Of a stretch of DNA of 64,000 bases, positions 33,279 to 61,586 are shown in pieces. The stretch is from contig JAREWP010000013.1 of the NCBI GenBank assembly GCA_029001845.1, positions 1 to 64,000 on the forward strand, written 5' to 3'. The DNA comes from Candidatus Magnetocorallium paracelense. GTDB taxonomy: Bacteria; Nitrospirota; Thermodesulfovibrionia; Thermodesulfovibrionales; Magnetobacteriaceae. Position numbers and translations under genes: made by a program. The notes under the pieces are model-generated. The model worked only from the letters and a program-made list of their open reading frames with translations, was not told where the DNA came from and made no database searches. The first letter of the stretch is position 1, and every line of letters starts with the position of its first letter.

Positions 33279-33840
33279 TTTATCCTGAAAATAAAAATGT
33301 AAGGGCAGAACTGCGTGTCTGCCCCGGCGGTGGCTAACGAACAACCGCACCGGTGTAACGGCGCGCGACCGGGGCGAACACACAGGTTCGCCCCTACGAA
33401 TCATCATGAATAATTTTCATGCTTTGTGGTGACCCCCAGGGCCATGAGCCTTTATCCGGAGAACAGACTAACGACGCGCCGGAAAGAAGCGCTTTGCTAT
33501 GAAAAAGATCGGATTAATTATAAAAAATTCAGTATATTATCATGATAAATAGTGATTTGCCAACACCGGTGTTCTTGATCCAAAGGAAATACCTGTCTTA
33601 TCAATATCGAATACAATCAAAACAAATCGTCATTCCCTTAATCCCTTAAAGGGGAATTCAGATACATTACATTTATTAACCTGAACCTGTGCATGGGTTT
33701 CATTTTCATATTATATTCCTGTTTCTGTATGCCTGAGTAGTTGTTAGGAAGAGTTTTTTAAATGGTGGAAGTTTGAAAAATTATGTTAGATTAAGTAATG
33801 CCTGATTAATCACGGAGGAGCCGGGCTTTACGGGATCTAT
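33279..33840. other. Intergenic region with REP-like palindrome
   Basis: No gene is seen. A palindrome with arms GGGGCGAAC (33371-33379) and GTTCGCCCC (33386-33394), followed by TACGAA, is a REP-like unit; part of its sequence recurs at about 35274 (CCGGGGCGAACAG). A short CCTTAAAGG palindrome is near 33650. The remainder is AT-rich and unremarkable. Confidence 0.5.
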
Positions 33841-49109: not shown

Positions 49110-49479
49110 TGAAATTATATCCTTAAATATTTTATTTAACGGCTTATGTTACAATCCGGTTTGTTTAGCGGAGGTGTTATATTGTAAAGGAAAGCGGAGA
49201 AAAAAGGTGTTTTAATGCTAAGGAATTTCAAAACAGTAACAACTGTGAGAGTCACCTGCCTACAGGTGACCTCTGCGGTGCGCTTGCAAGACGCTGCCGG
49301 AGGGAGTCACCCCTGGGCAGGGAGTCAAATGTTTAAACCATAAGGATTCATTTGTCTTATTAATGTTCGAACAATGTCATTAACTTAAGTAGCCGCAGGC
49401 TTCAGCCTGCGCAAACCGTTGGCTCATTGAAAGGGGAGGACGGAGGGTGCATTTTTTGAAGTCCGTTGCTTAATAGATC
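49110..49479. other. Intergenic region with two hairpins
   Basis: No gene is seen. GTCACCTG/CAGGTGAC (49251-49270) is a strong hairpin. CGCAGGC/GCCTGCG (49394-49411), preceded by TAGC, is a REP-like unit whose sequence recurs as an inverted pair at 61361-61510. The divergent genes on either side need promoters here; none is obvious. Confidence 0.5.
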
Positions 49480-51889: not shown

Positions 51890-51935
51890 TACATTAAGAG
51901 GTTCGCCCAATGTAGGGGGGAAATTTTTTGAATCC

Positions 51936-54900
51936 CTACTGCCCCCACTGTGCGCCTGAAGTCGTCCTGTCAGTCAGTACCGGAACAAATCTTTTATTTT
52001 GGGGTGATCCGCCCTGTCTCTGCATACATGAAGTCCAAAGGTTATCCTTATTGCCGGTTATTATAATTTTGCCTGCATATCTTATGACATCACTTCCCAT
52101 GGCTGAAACATCGACAGTCGCACCGGTGAGCGTTTTGTCCATTAAGGTTATTTCCGTACCGTCAAACTGAATAAAGGCCAAACTGTTGTCTTCGATTTCA
52201 CCCAGATCAAGATTGATTAAATCGGACACAGAGCCTTCTGAACTGATAATATCGAAGAATACATCTACCCTGCTGCCGCTGTTGTTTGCAACGATACAAA
52301 AGGTTTCATGATTGCCAAGTGTAAGTATGTAAGGTATGATTCCCTGATAGGCGTTGAGCGACCATGCGCCGGCGGAGTTGCTGTCCAGGTAGGTATATGA
52401 CGTATAGCCGGTGTCTGCAACGGAATTCACGATTGTCTTGAATTTCCTTGTATCTATTACATTACTTTCGTTGATCGTGATTTTAAAACTCCCGGCTGCG
52501 GAACTGCCCATGGAAACATCGGAAGTGATGCGCCATCTGTTGTTGTTGGAATCATAGGTCAGTGTCGTTCCCTCTGTGACTACTTTGGATATGGCCTGAT
52601 TGTCTGCTTCTATGTCGATCAGGATATCCGCAACCGACCCGCCTCCCTGACTTTGGGTCAGGAGATATCGGCTTGTATAGTCCTCTCCGTCATAGTAGGG
52701 GCTCGAAGTGGTGGTCACGGCATTTCTGTCCGCTATGGTTACGGTTATGATATCGCTTGTAATATTTTGCTGAAATCTCTTCCTCTCCGAATTGATATCG
52801 ATGACTCCATCGGCCTCTGTGGTTACGCCTGCAATATACTGTTTTTTGAATTCCGCAAATGTGGATTCATAGGTTTGAGAGTTGTTTTCTATTACCTGAA
52901 GGTTTAGTATGTTCGATTCCGACAGGCCCGAGGAGAGATACCAGTTGAATCCGATATCGCCTATCGTAAATGTTGAAGCCGGGGAGTATCTCGCAAAAGA
53001 GGTATCGCCGGTCAGGTGCATAAGAATTACCTTGTCCGTTGTTGCCAGAGATGTCAGAGAATCGCTGACGCTTCCGGCAATATCGTATTGCAAATTACCG
53101 TTGCCTGAAAATATCAGGCAGCCGGCCGTGGAGTTGGTTGTGCTTATCGGTACTCTGCTTGCCGCGCTGTCCAGAACCGGCAGAAGTTCTCCTGTGGTGA
53201 TCAGGTTGTCAGCCGTGTATTCGGCGCTCGTCGCACCGGTCGTATCTTTCCACACTGCCAGATAGTAGGTATAACCGCTTGTTGCATTGTTGAATCCGCC
53301 CTTACTGTCTGCAAAACAGAATTTCAGGTCTTGAAGGCTTGTGGTATTGGGAGAAGTCATGATTAAAGGATGCATTCCGTTTAATACATCGGAGATATTG
53401 TTGGAGACCGTGCTTTTGTACGCCTCTTTGGCGAGAAGATAGGTGGAAAGGGAAAAAGAACCGGACGACGATGAGTTGTAGCAGCCGCCGTAAGTAAACG
53501 TAGCGGTAACGTCGGTATCGGCGGACAGGGAAAGCGTGCATGTTCCCGTACCGCTGCAGACCCCTCCCGACCATCCGCAGAATCCGTATCCCGAACTCGG
53601 CGTTGCCGTGAGGGTTACCGATGTGGTGGATGTATACGTTTCCGTACAATCGCTGCCACAGTCTATGCCGTTGTCCGAACTCGTTACCGTGCCTCCGGCG
53701 GAATTGGTTACTGTTAATACATATTCTGAGCTGTCAGAGGCGGAGGCTGTAAAAACAGCTGTTTCCGTTGTATCGGCTGTAAGTGAGGAAAGGGTGCATG
53801 TACCGGCGCCGCTGCAGCTCCCTCCGCTCCAGCCGGTGAACTCATAGCCTGTGTCAGCAGTGGCCGTAAGGGTGATGGAGTTGGAGCATGCAAAGGTCTC
53901 TGTACAGTCTCTTCCACAGTTTATCTCCGAATCGCTGCTTGTGACACTGCCCGAACCGCTTACGCTTACTGTTAATGTGTATGACGGGTAAGTTGCAGCC
54001 GCGTATTTCAGGTCGCTGTTGCCGGGCTCCCAATAGCTGATATGTAACTGACTGCTTGAATCCACTGTGATCGACGTGTTTTCACCAACGGTACTCACAG
54101 TGTCAATAGAAGCAGAGCCCCATGTGCCGGAAGGGTTAGTGGCGTATTTCAGTTTGCCGTTGGTGTCGTCATAATAACTGATATGTAACTGCCCCCCTGA
54201 ATCCACTGCGATGGATGTATAATGACCAACGGAACCTAATGTGTCAATAGATGTAAAGCCCCATGTGGCTGACGGATTGGTTGCGTATTTCAGGTCGCCG
54301 TTGACGCCGTCGAAGTAACTGATATGCACCTGACCGCCCGAATCCACAGCGATTGAGTTATATTGCCCAACGGAACCAACGGTGTCAATGGATGTAAAGC
54401 CCCATGCGCCGCCAGGATTGGTTGCGTATTTCAGATCCAGGTTGGTTGTGTCGTAATAACTGATATGCAGCTGTCCGCTTGAGTCCACTGCGATGGATGT
54501 ATAGTCTCCAACGGAACCAACTGTGTCAATATATGTAAAGCTCCATGCGCCGCCGGGATTGGTCGCATAGTTCAGGTTATCGTTGAGGCCGTCATTATAA
54601 CTGATATGTAACTGACCGCCTGAATCCACGGTAATCGAGGTGTAATTACCTGCCGAGTTCGAGGCGTCGATGACTGTAGAGCCCCATGTGCCGGAAGGAT
54701 TGGTGGCGTATTTCAGTTCATAACTGGTGGCTTCGGAATAACTTATATGTAACTGCCCACCGGAATCCACTGAGATAGAGGTATATTTACCTGTTGAATT
54801 CGCAGTGTCAATAAATGTGGAACCCCATGTGGCTGACGGATTGGTGGCGTATTTCAGGTCGCCGTTGGTTTTGTCATAATAACTGATATGCGCCTGCCCG

Positions 54901-55076
54901 CCTGAATCCACTGCGATTGCATTATATCTGCCTACTTCGCCTGAGGTGTCGATGAATGTTGCTGACCAGGATAAAGAGCACTGTGCTTCGACGCGGTTAG
55001 AGAAGATGAGAGTAAACAGAGTAGTTAAAAGTATAAAGAGCGTGAGGGTTGTGGTGTTTAAAAACAGTTTTTTCAT
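51936..55076 (-). CDS. Large secreted propeller/InlB-repeat protein without the sorting-like segment (copy 3)
   Basis: From ATG 55076 about 1,046 residues: a signal peptide (LTLFILLTTLFTLIFSNRVEA), seven propeller repeats ending LKYATN, two InlB-type repeats with paired cysteines, then directly a short GGCYNSSSSGSF linker and the same C-terminal domain as copy 1 (LAKEAY, PLIMTSP, LKFCFADSKGGF, WYLS, VPVLTDRTTSGAQWGQ). The NVPFTDN segment, TM helix and second signal-like stretch of copies 1 and 2 are absent. A GGGGAG precedes the start. The frame above 55076 is not used. Confidence 0.8.
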   Translation of the reverse strand: MKKLFLNTTTLTLFILLTTLFTLIFSNRVEAQCSLSWSATFIDTSGEVGRYNAIAVDSGGQAHISYYDKTNGDLKYATNPSATWGSTFIDTANSTGKYTSISVDSGGQLHISYSEATSYELKYATNPSGTWGSTVIDASNSAGNYTSITVDSGGQLHISYNDGLNDNLNYATNPGGAWSFTYIDTVGSVGDYTSIAVDSSGQLHISYYDTTNLDLKYATNPGGAWGFTSIDTVGSVGQYNSIAVDSGGQVHISYFDGVNGDLKYATNPSATWGFTSIDTLGSVGHYTSIAVDSGGQLHISYYDDTNGKLKYATNPSGTWGSASIDTVSTVGENTSITVDSSSQLHISYWEPGNSDLKYAAATYPSYTLTVSVSGSGSVTSSDSEINCGRDCTETFACSNSITLTATADTGYEFTGWSGGSCSGAGTCTLSSLTADTTETAVFTASASDSSEYVLTVTNSAGGTVTSSDNGIDCGSDCTETYTSTTSVTLTATPSSGYGFCGWSGGVCSGTGTCTLSLSADTDVTATFTYGGCYNSSSSGSFSLSTYLLAKEAYKSTVSNNISDVLNGMHPLIMTSPNTTSLQDLKFCFADSKGGFNNATSGYTYYLAVWKDTTGATSAEYTADNLITTGELLPVLDSAASRVPISTTNSTAGCLIFSGNGNLQYDIAGSVSDSLTSLATTDKVILMHLTGDTSFARYSPASTFTIGDIGFNWYLSSGLSESNILNLQVIENNSQTYESTFAEFKKQYIAGVTTEADGVIDINSERKRFQQNITSDIITVTIADRNAVTTTSSPYYDGEDYTSRYLLTQSQGGGSVADILIDIEADNQAISKVVTEGTTLTYDSNNNRWRITSDVSMGSSAAGSFKITINESNVIDTRKFKTIVNSVADTGYTSYTYLDSNSAGAWSLNAYQGIIPYILTLGNHETFCIVANNSGSRVDVFFDIISSEGSVSDLINLDLGEIEDNSLAFIQFDGTEITLMDKTLTGATVDVSAMGSDVIRYAGKIIITGNKDNLWTSCMQRQGGSPQNKRFVPVLTDRTTSGAQWGQ

Positions 55077-55653
55077 TTCTATGTTTTCTCCCCTCGAAAC
55101 ATGGAAATTCAGGGTATGAATGTTAAAAGAAAAAAGGTAACAGTTCACGGGGGTCAGGGATCGGTGGTCTGTTTAGAGAGATTTGTTTTTTTCATAGTAA
55201 AAACTTGGGAAAAAGTGGAAATGACAATTATGTTCATGAAATTCAATAATAAAATCTCTTTTGCTTTCAACTGACCTCTGATCTCGGATCACTGTGAACA
55301 GTTACTTTTTTTTATGCGCCTGTTGTTGAAATAAATAAGAATTAAGGAAAAGAAGATTAAGTTTATTATGAAAAAAATATGATGCCGGCAGTCGTGATAT
55401 CGGTATTATAAAAAAGTAAAAATAAAAAAGCAACCAAACTTTTTATAATGGAAATGTCGTTTTTTTCGATAGGAGTGTTTCTTTGCGTTATCCATTGGAA
55501 CGGCCTGCCGGGTAGTTACAATTATAAAAAAATATGGTATACTGGTTTCATAATGATTCTCTGATAATAAAGATAGACCGTGCAGGGGTTCAAGGTTCTG
55601 AATCACTACTACCCTTGTAATTACTATTAAGACATTGTCAGTATATTGCACTA
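55077..55653. other. AT-rich intergenic region with a degenerate REP
   Basis: No gene is supported. A degenerate palindrome of the GGGGTTCA family lies at about 55583-55610 (CAGGGGTTCAAGG...CTGAATC). The many runs of A and T leave promoters possible but none stands out. Confidence 0.45.
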
Positions 55654-57144
55654 TTGAAACTAACACTCATATTTAACCCCTTCTCTTACAAACTCCACGA
55701 AGAGAACCTGAGAATCGTACAACGTTACTTCGGCCTCTTCCCGCCCCTCTCCCTTGCATGGGTGGCCTCCATTGCCGAAAAAGCAGGGCATGATGTGGAT
55801 ATCATTGACGCCAGGACCTTGCGTCTTTCCAAAGATCAGGTCGTAAAAATGCTAAAAAAAGACAGACCTGATATGATCGGTTTTATGATGACTACTTACA
55901 TGTACCGCGAGACTCTGGAGTGGATCAAATATATTAAGAAGGAGATGCCGAAATTAAAGGTAATCATCGGCGGCTATAATCTGCGGGTCTATCCCATAGA
56001 GTCGGTTATGGATGAGACGATCGATTACGGCTGTTTTAATTCTGCCTATGAAACCGTGCCCGGATTGTTGGAAACGATTGAAAACAACAGGGATCCCGGG
56101 GATGTGCCCGGTTTGATTTACAAACGCAATGGTAAGGTGATTCAAACGGACTATCCCCATGAACCTGATTTTAATCTCTACCCCAATCCCGCCAGGCATT
56201 TACTGCCCAATGAACTCTATGCCGAGTTTCCCACGGAGCGTAAGAATTTTACGGTGATGGTGACTAGTAAGGGATGCCCTATGGGGTGTAAGTTCTGCGA
56301 AGCAGGGGGGACAAAGTATAATCCCAGGAGTATACAGACAGTTGTAGATGAGATAGAAGAGTGTTATAATCGGTACGGAATCAGAGAGATCGATATATTT
56401 GATTATGAATTTTTGATTAATAAAAAAAGGGCCATGGGCATATGCGAGGAGATAGAGAGACGGAAGCTGGATATATTGTGGGCCTGCAGGGCGAGGATCG
56501 ATTCCGTAAACGACGAATTGCTCGGGGCCATGAAGAGGGCAGGGTGCGGGAGGATTTATTTTGGTATTGAATCGGGTCTTCAGGAGATGCTGGATCGCGT
56601 GAATAAGCGAATTACCCTTGAAAAGGTGAGAGAGAGCATAAAGATGACCAAAAAACACGGTATCCGGACGTTGGGATTTTTTATGACAGGGCTGCCCGAC
56701 GAAACGCGTGAGAGTTTAAAGGCCACGGTAAAGTTCGCCAGGCGTCTGGATCTCGATTATGTACAGTTTTCAAAGGCCACGGCGAAACCTTTGACAACAT
56801 TGTGGAGGGATCTTGTAGCAAGTACGGGACACGATTACTGGCGGGAGTATATTTTGGGAAATCAGGAAGAGGCGGTTTTACCGAGACCGTGGACGGAATT
56901 GACAAACGATGAGATCGATTATCTGACAAAGGATGCCTATGTAAAGTACCATTCAAGACCCTTTTTTCTGTTAAAACATGTTTTGCAGTTAAGGTCGTTC
57001 GATGAATTTAAGAGGAAGTTCAGGGGCTGGCTGGAGATGAAATTCTCCCAGGAGGATGTGTCCAAAGCAGATCACAAGTTTGAGGCCTATATAGAAAGCA
57101 AATCCCACCTGGAGTGGTATAAGAAGATGTCAAAGTGGAGGTAG
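55654..57144 (+). CDS. B12-binding-type radical SAM enzyme
   Basis: The N-terminal half is a cobalamin-binding-like Rossmann domain (PPLSLAWVASIAEKAGHDVDIID, DMIGF, VIIGG). The radical SAM core has the cluster motif CPMGCKFC, then EIDIFDYEF, GRIYFGIESG and TLGFFMTGLPDET. It is class-B-like (MiaB/BchE-type superfamily); substrates include hopanoids, lipids, peptides and tetrapyrroles. It starts at a TTG (MKLTLIFNPF). Its stop codon lies in a REP palindrome (57141-57168). It begins a run of radical SAM genes on this strand. Confidence 0.85.
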   Translation: MKLTLIFNPFSYKLHEENLRIVQRYFGLFPPLSLAWVASIAEKAGHDVDIIDARTLRLSKDQVVKMLKKDRPDMIGFMMTTYMYRETLEWIKYIKKEMPKLKVIIGGYNLRVYPIESVMDETIDYGCFNSAYETVPGLLETIENNRDPGDVPGLIYKRNGKVIQTDYPHEPDFNLYPNPARHLLPNELYAEFPTERKNFTVMVTSKGCPMGCKFCEAGGTKYNPRSIQTVVDEIEECYNRYGIREIDIFDYEFLINKKRAMGICEEIERRKLDILWACRARIDSVNDELLGAMKRAGCGRIYFGIESGLQEMLDRVNKRITLEKVRESIKMTKKHGIRTLGFFMTGLPDETRESLKATVKFARRLDLDYVQFSKATAKPLTTLWRDLVASTGHDYWREYILGNQEEAVLPRPWTELTNDEIDYLTKDAYVKYHSRPFFLLKHVLQLRSFDEFKRKFRGWLEMKFSQEDVSKADHKFEAYIESKSHLEWYKKMSKWR

Positions 57145-57168
57145 GGGTTCAAGATTTTGAACCCCTAC
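57141..57168. repeat. REP palindrome, GGGGTTCA family
   Basis: Arms GTAGGGGTTCAA and TTGAACCCCTAC are perfect over 12 bases with a short centre. The TAG inside the first arm is the stop codon of the preceding radical SAM gene. The same palindrome occurs at 57472, 57526 and 61559. Confidence 0.85.
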
Positions 57169-57207
57169 AGCGAACAGGTGTGGACGCCCCCACATATTTT
57201 TGATAAC

Positions 57208-57600
57208 ATGGAAAAACAACGTCGCCGTTCTATACGATTAAAAGGATACGATTATTCGCAGGCAGGGTTATATTTTATTACAATTTGCACCCATAATAAA
57301 AAGTGTTTGTTTGGTAATGTTATTGAAGGAGAAATGGTCCTGAATGACGGGGGAGAAATTGCAAAGCAGTGTTTACTGGATATTCCAAAGCATTTTCCGA
57401 ATAGGATGTTACTTGAATATATTGTAATGCCGAACCATATCCATATGATCATACAGATTGTTGATGCCTCCGTAGGGGTTCAAAATCTTGACCCCCTACG
57501 ACGAACGAACAGGGATGGCGTATTCGCAGGGGTTCAAAATCTTGAACCCCTACGGTGTTTTTCGGGATATTGCGATATTGAATATTACAATTATCTATAA
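57208..57600 (+). pseudogene. Truncated REP-associated tyrosine transposase (RAYT)
   Basis: The frame reads RRRSIRLKGYDYSQAGLYFITICTHNKKCLFG, GEIAKQCLLDIPKHFP and VMPNHIHMII, the start and HUH motif of Y1-type RAYT transposases. Homologues continue for at least 50 more residues to the catalytic Tyr; here coding sequence passes into two REP palindromes and the start of the next gene, so the nucleophile is lost. ATG 57208 is the likely original start. RAYTs mobilise REP elements, and REPs of one family surround this remnant. Confidence 0.75.
57472..57553. repeat. Two tandem REP palindromes (57472-57499, 57526-57553)
   Basis: Each unit pairs (G)GGGTTCAAAA with a complementary TTGA(A/C)CCCCTAC arm. 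They are 26 bases apart, in the same orientation, between the RAYT remnant and the next radical SAM gene. Fully matching arms are seen in the second unit; the first has one substitution. Confidence 0.8.
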
Positions 57601-59083
57601 AGGCCGATATCACATACGACAGGCTCTTGATTTGGAGATTCTTTCCTCTGTGCTTCAGAACAGAGGCCATACGGTCAGGTTCGTATATGTACCCGATCTT
57701 TTTGGCGTTACCGATAATGTTTTGCAAATAAAATATCTTAACGCTCTTGTTACATCTCTAGGGAAAAGCATAACGAATATTGTCGAAACAACCCCCTCTG
57801 TTGTCATATTCAGCGTACTGCCCGGTACTTACAGATGGATGAGAGAGCTTGCCGAAGAGACGAAAAAAGTGGTGAATGCTCCCATTGTATTTACAGGGCT
57901 TCACCCTACGCTCGTACCTGACAGAGTGATGAAAGACCGGTTTGTCGATTATGTCATTGAAGGCGAGTGTGAAGAAGCGATTCCAGCACTCATCAATGCG
58001 TTGAAAAATTCCGGAGATATGGAAAAGGTCGGTAATCTCAGATATCGAATGGATGGAGAGGTTAAAAAAACAACTCAAATGAATCCCGTTGATCTCGATT
58101 CTCTTCCCATACCTGACAAAGCACTTTTTACGCCCCATGTGCAACATTCCTACAGCTATGTCGCCATGGTGAGCCGGGGATGCCCCTTTCACTGCTCTTA
58201 CTGTGAGGAAACTTCCATGAAGAAGGTATATGGAAGCAGGTATTTCAGGAGGAGAAAGGTCGATAATATTATTGAAGAGCTTTCATCGGCAAAGCAAAAA
58301 TACGGATTCAAAGAAGTCATATTTAAAGATTCCTATTTAACGGGTGATATGAAGTGGCTCGTAAGCTTAATGAAAAGATATAAAGAAGAGATCGATCTGC
58401 CATTTAAATGCTTCTGCACAATAAATGGATTTAACGAGAAAACCGCCTCTCTTTTAAAAGAGGCGGGATGCTATTGCATCGAGTTCGGATTGCAGACATG
58501 GAACGAGAGGTTACGTCGTGAAGTTTTAAAGAGATATGAGACCAATAAAGAGGCTTTGGAGGCCTTTGAAATATGCGATAAAGCCGGATTATCTTATGAT
58601 ATCGATCATATGTTCGATTTACCTGGCGAAATGGAAGAGGATCACATCAAGGGAGCGAAAAGGTATAAAACATTGCGTTGTTTAAACAGAATAAAGGTGC
58701 ATCGACTCGTTTACCTGCCAGGGGCCGGGATTATCGAGGAGGGGATTAAATGCGCTTCTTTACCGGGCAATTTCGATGTAATCTCTGCGGAGGGTGTGGA
58801 GAGTGATTTTTACGAGCAACATAAAGATATTTCAAAGGATGGTGCGTCAGTCAGGGATTTCTCGGTTTTATATAAAATTCTCCCTCTTTTGCCTGAAAGG
58901 ATGTTGACCATACTGCTTCGCAGGAGACTCTACAAAGTGTTACATCTGATTCCGTCGGCTGTGACGATCATTGCACAGGGAATTATCGCCTTTAAAAACA
59001 GAGACCTCAGATTTTCGATATATTTGAGATATTATCCTTATAAAATAGTAAAGGCAGTTTTTGAAAGGGGGTTCAGGTCATAA
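57578..59083 (+). CDS. B12-binding-type radical SAM enzyme
   Basis: After a cobalamin-binding-like domain (LEILSSVLQNRGHTVRFVYVPDLFG, VVIFSVLPGTYR, PIVFTGLHPTLVPDR, YVIEGECEEAIP) comes the cluster motif CPFHCSYCEE and later CIEFGLQTWNE and FDLPGEM. The layout and length are those of MiaB/BchE-like enzymes. The open frame begins at 57488 inside the first REP, but the encoded residues there are REP-derived. Family similarity begins near TTG 57578, so the start is uncertain. It may have lost its original promoter and 5' end to REP insertion. Confidence 0.8.
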   Translation: MNITIIYKGRYHIRQALDLEILSSVLQNRGHTVRFVYVPDLFGVTDNVLQIKYLNALVTSLGKSITNIVETTPSVVIFSVLPGTYRWMRELAEETKKVVNAPIVFTGLHPTLVPDRVMKDRFVDYVIEGECEEAIPALINALKNSGDMEKVGNLRYRMDGEVKKTTQMNPVDLDSLPIPDKALFTPHVQHSYSYVAMVSRGCPFHCSYCEETSMKKVYGSRYFRRRKVDNIIEELSSAKQKYGFKEVIFKDSYLTGDMKWLVSLMKRYKEEIDLPFKCFCTINGFNEKTASLLKEAGCYCIEFGLQTWNERLRREVLKRYETNKEALEAFEICDKAGLSYDIDHMFDLPGEMEEDHIKGAKRYKTLRCLNRIKVHRLVYLPGAGIIEEGIKCASLPGNFDVISAEGVESDFYEQHKDISKDGASVRDFSVLYKILPLLPERMLTILLRRRLYKVLHLIPSAVTIIAQGIIAFKNRDLRFSIYLRYYPYKIVKAVFERGFRS

Positions 59084-59162
59084 CTCCGAACCTGCACATA
59101 GGGTTTATAATTCGAGGTTGTTTTTTTTGGGGAACTGTCCGATATATGACAGTTGTTAAATA

Positions 59163-60128
59163 ATGAAAAAATCATCGGCCCCTGTTTCTCTTTTTATCAG
59201 AATATCGATCTCCCTCTTAATTTTGGCTGTTCTCTGCTATTATAAAGAGATAGATATCTATATATTGAAAGAGGAGTGGGGAAAGGCGAATGGCGCTTTA
59301 CTTATCATAACAGCGATAGCCTCTCTTGTGGTGCATACACTGGCGGGAGCCGACAAATTATGGCGTGTTTTAAGGGCCATGAATGTGGATATCTCTTTTA
59401 AGGAGATATTCAGAATACGGATGGGTACAGGGCCTCTCAGGGTGTTGATGCCTTTAAAAACGGGTGATTTAATTAATATCGCCTATCTTAGGCGATGTAA
59501 TTACATGCCCTTTGGTCAGGCCTCGGGTGCCGTGATATTCGATAAGGGATTAAACGGGATCGGCATTTTTTTCTGGCTTCTTTTGAGCATCGTTTTTTTG
59601 CCCGACATATTAATGCATTGGCAGTTACCGGCTGCATTCGCTATTTGTCTTTTTTATTTTTCAATTGTTTTCAACCCATGGCTTCAGGAAAAGATCGCAA
59701 TGACAGGAGGTCTGGTTCATCCCAAAATCGAGAAACTTGTAAAGGAAATAATGGTTCCCTTTAAAAGTTTTCCAAATAGATTAAAGCTGTTCTTCATAAC
59801 CTATGGTATCTTATTTCAGGCAAGGCCGCTGATTGTTATATACCTGCTCTTTATGGCGTACGGAATCACACCCGATATCAGTAATGTTATTGCCTATACC
59901 TCGATCGCCATACTTTTTGGCCATATACCGATAACTCCCCTGGGTATAGGGCCTCGTGAGGCGACTTTGGTTGCTCTTTTTGCCGGACAGGCGACATCTG
60001 AGATCATTGTAAGTGTGGCGGCATTAATGACGTTGGCAGTGTATGTTATCCCTATGATGGCCGGGGCGTTTTGGACGCCCGGTATTATGAGGGATTTTAT
60101 CTCTCCCGATGTGGAGATAAAAATGTAA
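59163..60128 (+). CDS. LPG-synthase-TM/flippase-like membrane protein
   Basis: The 321-residue polytopic protein has about eight helices and the family signatures VLRAMNVDISFKEIFRIR, PLKTGDLINIAYLRR, GQASGAVIFDKGLNGIGIF and a late ITPLGIGPREATLVALF. This is the lysylphosphatidylglycerol synthase TM-region (PF03706) family, whose members are found as stand-alone lipid or glycolipid flippase-like proteins. With radical SAM genes on both sides it may help export or flip their modified lipid or product. The role is inferred. Confidence 0.8.
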   Translation: MKKSSAPVSLFIRISISLLILAVLCYYKEIDIYILKEEWGKANGALLIITAIASLVVHTLAGADKLWRVLRAMNVDISFKEIFRIRMGTGPLRVLMPLKTGDLINIAYLRRCNYMPFGQASGAVIFDKGLNGIGIFFWLLLSIVFLPDILMHWQLPAAFAICLFYFSIVFNPWLQEKIAMTGGLVHPKIEKLVKEIMVPFKSFPNRLKLFFITYGILFQARPLIVIYLLFMAYGITPDISNVIAYTSIAILFGHIPITPLGIGPREATLVALFAGQATSEIIVSVAALMTLAVYVIPMMAGAFWTPGIMRDFISPDVEIKM

Positions 60129-60245
60129 GGTTCCGGTTACAATCCTAAACCTGTACAGACGTTGCATATATGCACATATAGGGTTGGGGTGATAGGGGTA
60201 CAATCCTCGATATGTTAACGCTTCTCCACCGTCACCCCTCACCTT

Positions 60246-60275
60246 GTCTCCTCTCCCCTCAAGGGGAGAGGAGAC
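60246..60275. terminator. 14-bp perfect stem between radical SAM operons
   Basis: Arms GTCTCCTCTCCCCT and AGGGGAGAGGAGAC flank only CA, so the stem is nearly a palindrome. It resembles a widely dispersed CTCTCCCC palindrome. Absence of a T-run argues for a REP-like element over a strict terminator. Confidence 0.5.
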
Positions 60276-60354
60276 ATATCCGGAATTTCTTTGAAATTCC
60301 CAAGCATTAAATCAAACCTGTTTGGCGCCGGTTATGCCGGATTAGGTATGGAAT

Positions 60355-61344
60355 TTGATTCTTAAAAATAAAGCAAAGCTGGCGTTTTCGGTATTATCCT
60401 ATAAATTTAGCAGGCATAAGAGACATCCCGTTGTGGTTGCCTGGCTTATCACGGGCAGGTGCAATGCGTCGTGCCTTTATTGTAAGTGGAAACATCTCCG
60501 CGCTTCCGATGAACTGAATACCAATGAAGTTAAGAATATGGTAGATCAGATGAAACAGGCAGGTGTGCTTTTTATCTCTTTTACAGGAGGAGAACCTCTT
60601 TTAAGGGAGGATATGGGAGAGATTATAAGATATGTAAAGGATTCCGGTCTTGTATGTAAATTAAACACCAACGGTTCTCTTGTAAAGTCACGGATAGACG
60701 ATTTAAGGGGACTCGATCTTTTGCAGATAAGCTTTGACGGCCCTGGTGAACTGCACGACAAACTTCGGGGAAACGGTACATCCGGTGTCGCTTCGGAGGC
60801 TGTAAGGGCTGCCAAAAAGGCAGGCATCAAAGTGCAGCTTATCACATGTTTAACAAAAAAGAATATTTCGGCCCTGGATCAGGTGCTGGCATACGGGGTA
60901 AACGTAGGCTCTAAATTTAACTTTCAGATACTGTCGAAAGAGTTTATGGGAAAGAGCGAGATCGATACCTGTTTGCCCGGGAAAGAGGAGTTAGTAAATG
61001 CATTACAATATCTGATCGATTTGAAAAGGAATAGAGATTCACTTTCAAAGGCAATAGGAAACTCCCGAAGCGAACTTGAATATTATCTGAACCAAACGGA
61101 GGGGGGCGACGGGAGATGTGATTGTGAGCTTGTGACCGCTACGATGCTTCCTGAGGGGAAACTGATTTTTTGTGGTAATTCCAGGGAGTATAAGTATTTC
61201 GACGCACGAAGCGAGGGATTTCAAAGCGCCTTTTCAAAGCTGACGATTCCGGAGTGCGACGGTTGTGTATGTGTCGGGAAGTTACGGCTTTCCAGGGTAT
61301 ATAAGTGGGATATTTCCGTTATAGGAGATATGATTCGTAAGTAA
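60355..61344 (+). CDS. Radical SAM protein with SPASM-like C-terminal cysteines
   Basis: The 329-residue protein has CNASCLYCKW (CxxxCxxC), FISFTGGEPLLREDM, KLNTNGSLV and QISFDGPGELHD, the standard radical SAM TIM-barrel strands. A C-terminal cluster region follows (GDGRCDCELV, LIFCGNS, CDGCVCVGK), suggesting one extra iron-sulphur cluster as in SPASM/twitch enzymes that modify peptides or cofactors. No B12 domain. It starts at a TTG; an ATG just upstream is out of frame. No precursor-peptide gene is visible nearby. Confidence 0.82.
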   Translation: MILKNKAKLAFSVLSYKFSRHKRHPVVVAWLITGRCNASCLYCKWKHLRASDELNTNEVKNMVDQMKQAGVLFISFTGGEPLLREDMGEIIRYVKDSGLVCKLNTNGSLVKSRIDDLRGLDLLQISFDGPGELHDKLRGNGTSGVASEAVRAAKKAGIKVQLITCLTKKNISALDQVLAYGVNVGSKFNFQILSKEFMGKSEIDTCLPGKEELVNALQYLIDLKRNRDSLSKAIGNSRSELEYYLNQTEGGDGRCDCELVTATMLPEGKLIFCGNSREYKYFDARSEGFQSAFSKLTIPECDGCVCVGKLRLSRVYKWDISVIGDMIRK

Positions 61345-61360
61345 TTTGGTTGTAAAGAAG

Positions 61361-61510
61361 ATGTAGCCGCAGGCTTCAGTCTGCGTAAAGGGCGGCGAAT
61401 AGAAATCCGTATTTATTGTCAAAAAAGGCGAGACCTGGAGTCATGACCTTTCGTGTAAAGGGATGTGTCCTTTAACAGAACGCGGCGCAGGCTGAAGCCT
61501 GCGGCTACAT
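61361..61510. repeat. Inverted pair of 25-bp REP-like units
   Basis: The unit at 61361-61385 (ATGTAGCCGCAGGCTTCAGT...) is complementary at 24 of 25 positions to 61486-61510. Each half is itself a GCAGGC/GCCTGC hairpin. The paired arrangement resembles a bacterial interspersed mosaic element. A third copy of the unit is at 49389-49411. Confidence 0.75.
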
Positions 61511-61558
61511 TTATTTGTAGCATAATGAGGAGTCTGCCCCGATATGTAAAAGCCTCTC

Positions 61559-61586
61559 GTAGGGGTTCAGGATTCTGAACCCCTAC
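61559..61586. repeat. REP palindrome, GGGGTTCA family
   Basis: Perfect arms GTAGGGGTTCAG and CTGAACCCCTAC around GATT. It belongs to the same family as the copies at 57141, 57472 and 57526, and lies just upstream of the last radical SAM gene. Confidence 0.85.

Follow-up and report, generated by a model that had tools for sequence, protein, structure and literature searches.

The window analysed here is a stretch of 64,000 nt (positions 1-64,000, forward strand) of contig JAREWP010000013.1 from the assembly GCA_029001845.1 of Candidatus Magnetocorallium paracelense. Among B12/radical SAM genes it contains a truncated gene for a REP-associated tyrosine transposase (RAYT/TnpAREP), together with four near-perfect copies of a palindrome of the type GTAGGGGTTCA(n)TGAACCCCTAC, located at 57141-57168, 57472-57499, 57526-57553 and 61559-61586 and given here without strand. 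Each copy differs from GTAGGGGTTCAAAATTTTGAACCCCTAC at 1-3 of 28 positions, whereas the closest match in 100 dinucleotide shuffles of the window had 8 mismatches, and all four fold into stable hairpins of ~12 bp with a 4-nt loop (z -5.5 to -7.7). These palindromes, which a sequence-only reading of this DNA had located at the same four places, are far above chance. Of the two degenerate copies claimed alongside them, the one near 55583 is probably real: it occupies 55582-55609, and with 6 of 28 mismatches it is above chance as a sequence, while its hairpin is lost (z -0.7). The other, at 59068, is doubtful, as neither the mismatch count (more than 9 from GTAGGGGTTCAAAATTTTGAACCCCTAC) nor the weak fold (z -2.6) supports its membership of the family. 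A further degenerate copy, absent from the earlier reading, is found at 51912-51939 (6 of 28 mismatches). A large predicted surface or secreted protein (51936-55148, minus strand), which contains 141-bp tandem repeats (YATNPSGTWGS...) at about 54525-54947, adjoins the REP region.

On the plus strand, a B12/radical SAM gene runs to 57144 and obtains its TAG stop codon from the first REP (57141-57168), which carries GTAG at both ends. The ATG of the RAYT fragment follows after 39 nt at 57208, and the N-terminal HUH half, with the motif MPNHIHM (NH[IFV]H in subclass 2.4), extends to about 57471 within an ORF that continues to 57600. Directly after the HUH strand come the REP at 57472-57499, a spacer of 26 nt and the REP at 57526-57553. 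Both keep to the RAYT frame, GTA or GCA being read as a codon, and encode VGVQNLDPLRR and AGVQNLEPLRC, respectively. RAYT homology stops at these two internal REPs, and the next B12/radical SAM gene begins 24 nt further on at a TTG (57578), the start being our choice. The non-RAYT tail of the truncated ORF (57554-57600, plus strand) overlaps the start of this gene. The earlier description of a remnant lying between palindromes is therefore right as to the REPs around the fragment but misses that two of the four sit in frame inside it and that the break occurs at them; a 3' flanking REP is not separable from the internal copies. The fourth copy (61559-61586) is intergenic, with a radical SAM gene on either side. 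The radical SAM genes are the neighbourhood of the system and not part of it, although one takes its stop codon from a REP.

ORF 57208-57600 showed a weak match to the NCBIfam family REP_Tyr_transpos (E 6.9e-6, below the family cut-off) and a strong match (E 9.7e-46) to positions 4-105 of a 176-position profile built from intact relatives, so that the lack of RAYT homology, which the sequence-only reading had named as a result that would count against it, is not observed. The family profile also matches the TnpAREP structure 4er8 (E 1.9e-8). The WQ motif and the YIxNNP motif with the catalytic Tyr are absent from the ORF, its 3' half being missing, and a search for the Tyr half found none downstream of the fragment and none convincing elsewhere in the window. 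Judged by these sequence matches, the ORF is the HUH half of a RAYT without its Tyr half, as had been proposed. An IS200/IS605 insertion sequence was considered and rejected: Y1_Tnp reaches only E 0.16 against the fragment, NCBIfam prefers REP_Tyr_transpos, and no second copy of the RAYT unit was found in the genome by profile. No relatives of the fragment were found in IMG/VR.

REP families and the intact RAYT of the genome

Pattern searches of the 6.0 Mb genome located the GTAGGGGTTCAAAATTTTGAACCCCTAC palindrome, with up to 3 mismatches, at 7 places, and a reversed control pattern at none. Four of these places are in the window and one each is on contigs C101, C30 and C73; confinement to the window, which had been named as contrary evidence, thus does not hold. 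The palindrome is repeated above chance and mostly intergenic, as in the GTAG REP families, yet the genome-wide count reveals a tiny family, far below the more than 100 copies that REPs usually reach. Allowing up to 2 mismatches, the palindrome was not found in the 99 related genomes searched. The copy on C101 (C101:38385, about position 1500 of locus L012) lies between two genes of an apparent type III CRISPR (Cas10/Csm-like) cluster, which was called by eye from ORF translations.

A search of the genome with the subclass profile returned exactly two members, the window fragment and an intact gene (L014) on contig C2, which is the kind of full-length RAYT that the earlier reading had suggested looking for. 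L014 encodes 220 aa with the HUH motif, WQRNYYEH and YIMNNP. Its REP pair, GGGGCAGACC... and GGGGCGAACACACAGGTTCGCCCC, occurs on the 5' side of the gene, within the gene in frame, and on its 3' side, and the associated REP family (GTAGGGGCGAAC...) gives 65 strand hits at about 39 places in the genome. One copy of the L014-type family (GTAGGGGCGAACCTGTGTGTTCGCCCC) is located in the window, at 33368-33397.

The presence of L014 raises the question whether the palindrome family of the window is still alive, with the intact enzyme mobilising the GGGGTTCA palindromes in trans. L014 has all three motifs, both REP families have a GTAG foot and a GGGG stem start, and some cross-activity on another REP has been described for the E. 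coli TnpAREP (PMC8266576). However, L014 has its own REP family both within the gene and in its flanks, and this family is present at about 39 places as compared to 7 for GGGGTTCA, and the stems of the GGGGTTCA and GGGGCGAAC families diverge from the sixth base on. The fragment is just 51% identical to L014, and each tnpAREP goes with its own REP family according to the main text of PMC6006769. Mobilisation in trans is thus unlikely: the other RAYT on which active movement was said to depend does exist, but with its different and larger REP family it is probably not the mobiliser.

A Pfam Y1_Tnp search of the genome found five genes whose frames are open over 285-338 aa and one further frame interrupted by stops. 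These were rejected as the missing partner, as none shares a contig with the GGGGTTCA palindromes and none is matched by the subclass profile. A third GTAG palindrome family, GTAGCCGCAGGCTTCAGCCTGCG, is present at about 83 places in the genome (90 strand hits), frequently as two inverted copies whose starts are 49 nt apart; it is seen in the window at 61363-61385 (+), 61486-61508 (-) and 49389-49411 (+), and also at C93:65175. No RAYT matching the subclass 2.4 profile accompanies this family in the genome. Another palindrome, CTCTCCCC...GGGGAGAG, occupies 60245-60276 in the intergenic stretch after 60128, and a similar one is present beside another GGGGTTCA REP in locus L008 (about 1440-1490), possibly representing a further repeat family.

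Internal REPs in intact relatives

TnpAREP subclass 2.4, which Quentin et al. 2018 (PMC6006769) describe from Cyanobacteria, Bacteroidetes and various phyla, is characterised by double-foot REPs and by REPs that interrupt the gene in frame between HuH and Y. The window ORF has such in-frame REPs (57472 and 57526), as do its relatives, and the window locus is a broken member of this known kind (Bertels group 4). Protein searches yielded about 100 relatives from many phyla, of which 85 intact genes were used for a hairpin test. The strongest hairpin of the gene is located in the HUH-Tyr linker in 60 of these 85, compared to 18.3 expected from linker length, and 72 of the 85 have a linker hairpin scoring at least 8 bp. 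At 22 of these 72 loci the hairpin core recurs in the gene's own flanks, compared to a mean of 5.4% when the flanks of other loci are used. Composite units with their spacers can be common to linker and flank, as in L063 (107 nt, 88%), L027 (98 nt, 100%) and L099 (131 nt, 92%). The GGGGTTCA palindrome itself is found at the corresponding place within the intact genes of L063 (Desulfobacterales), L049 (Anammoxibacter), L109 (Emticicia), L059 and L061, and in L109 and L063 matching REPs lie 24-55 nt 3' of the gene.

The internal REPs are read in one register. At linker occurrences of GTA[GA]GG, in genes that are related and do not represent independent events, GTA is a codon in 79 of 84 cases, the second open register is used in 5 and the register giving a TAG stop in none. 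For the first linker REP, the GTA register is kept in most of 14 phylum groups, whereas occurrences outside the linker more often use the other open register. REP types, assigned by simple peptide patterns, cluster on a weakly resolved tree of the N-terminal halves (30 changes compared to 53.8 in shuffles). Some linkers, those of L093, L098, L117, L055 and L115, are expanded into tandem peptide repeats (VAQNTN..., VAQNDM..., VAPNNA..., DDGDV..., ELHSPENAN), with up to about 165 residues between the HUH and Tyr motifs.

A protein model of L014 (mean pLDDT 77.8) adopts the HUH fold, resembling the TnpA of IS608 and ISDra2 and the TnpAREP 4er8 (E 1e-5 to 4e-5). The core is mostly above 90 while the linker, residues about 91-150, is mostly at 46-62. 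The low confidence of the linker in this model suggests that the REP-encoded peptide probably forms a disordered loop on the protein surface, and this would account for its being tolerated. A bolder idea is that the internal REP of subclass 2.4 RAYTs is a maintained part of the gene, the transposase's own target kept within it and not a tolerated stray insertion, and that the window shows the price, a gene cut at its own REP. This idea comes from the single register in nearly all genes across many phyla and supposes that the stem changes along with the flanking REPs; we advance it tentatively and regard it as rather doubtful. If it were true, a role in autoregulation or in linkage of the enzyme to its substrate would be possible.

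Deletion at the internal REP was rejected as a general fate of these genes, as the truncated relatives with enough downstream DNA retain the C-terminal half with the Tyr, mostly in another frame. Truncation like that of the window fragment was found in none of the relatives.

Probable decay of the REPtron and comparison with known systems

The explanation that we strongly favour is that the window contains a decayed subclass 2.4 REPtron, whose transposase gene was cut short at an internal REP of its own with loss of the catalytic half, probably through deletion between REPs, and whose palindromes are relics. In its intact form, the REPtron would have had double-foot GTAG palindromes on both sides of a gene encoding a single-domain HUH/Tyr ssDNA endonuclease, and copies of that palindrome would also have formed an in-frame part of the loop that connects the HUH strand (beta-3) to helix alpha-C. 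By analogy with the biochemistry reported in the literature of the family, the substrate of such an enzyme would be its cognate REP, recognised as a single strand folded into a hairpin; the catalytic Tyr would cleave close to this hairpin, and the enzyme would rejoin the REP at another site, so that REPs become scattered between genes. The REPtron was most likely acquired horizontally, judging from the absence of the palindrome from the related genomes searched and from the sequence of the fragment, which is closer to proteins of other phyla than to L014 (70% identity to a Bacteroidetes protein over 81 columns). After its arrival it would have scattered a few REPs before losing all of the gene beyond the edge of an internal REP, a 3' half that encodes alpha-C and the Tyr helix. 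In the simplest scenario, this loss would have come about by recombination or deletion between the internal REP and its matching counterpart, normally found just downstream of the gene (24-55 nt 3' in L109 and L063), and the seven copies left in the genome would be immobile fossils. No empty site or intact allele of the window locus was found; the identity of the downstream radical SAM gene to its nearest relatives is only about 29-35%, and reconstruction of the empty site from its orthologues failed.

The same structure could arise if the assembler, misled by near-identical REPs, had left out the 3' half of a gene that is in fact intact. In intact relatives, the REPs inside the gene and those in its 3' flank are indeed near-identical, and the host assembly is fragmented into 103 contigs, in which repeats can mislead assembly. 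However, the junction lies within a 99-kb contig and the missing half was found nowhere else in the genome, where the full-length profile matches just L014 and the window fragment, so an assembly artefact appears improbable. Still less probable, in our view very much so, is a functional short protein, such as a REP-binding regulator made from the HUH half. The ORF is open, its 5' two-thirds are free of stops and frameshifts and the HUH motif is intact, but the fold of the product would be incomplete without the alpha-C and Tyr helices, its tail after 57553 is non-RAYT and runs into the next gene, and no relative with the same truncation was found. A further reading, in which the palindromes have nothing to do with the RAYT and are ordinary transcription terminators or inverted repeats that arose by chance, as their gene-end positions (57141, 61559) and strong folding might suggest, is refuted by their recurrence inside intact RAYT genes of other phyla and by the shuffles, and also disagrees with the lack of a T-run after them, the conserved sequence of loop and both feet, and the two copies within an ORF.

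A decayed REPtron accounts for a truncated RAYT between REPs as a worn member of a documented subclass. To the 2018 description of that subclass our survey adds the position of the hairpin, the frequency with which internal and flanking repeats are shared, and one conserved register, and its figures make a function of the internal REP (autoregulation, substrate linkage) testable against a frozen insertion. Neither the single register nor truncation at an internal REP is described in the main text of PMC6006769 or of Di Nocera et al. 2013 (PMC3733652).

In comparison to the subclass 2.4 REPtrons in the main text of PMC6006769, the window copy lacks everything past the internal REPs and is accompanied by a REP family of only 7 copies. 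The GTAG foot of the palindrome, the dimer arrangement and a REP giving the TAG stop of a neighbouring gene are shared with the GTAG REPs of PMC3733652, whose main text describes intragenic REPs and REP-supplied stop codons; there, however, intragenic REPs reside mainly in DNA repair and other genes and not in the transposase itself. The HUH fold, as seen from the profile and from the model of the intact relative, is common to the E. coli TnpAREP (4er8) and the TnpA of IS608 and ISDra2. The E. coli enzyme belongs to subclass 2.2, for which internal REPs are not described, and IS608 and ISDra2 are true insertion sequences, unlike the system in the window.
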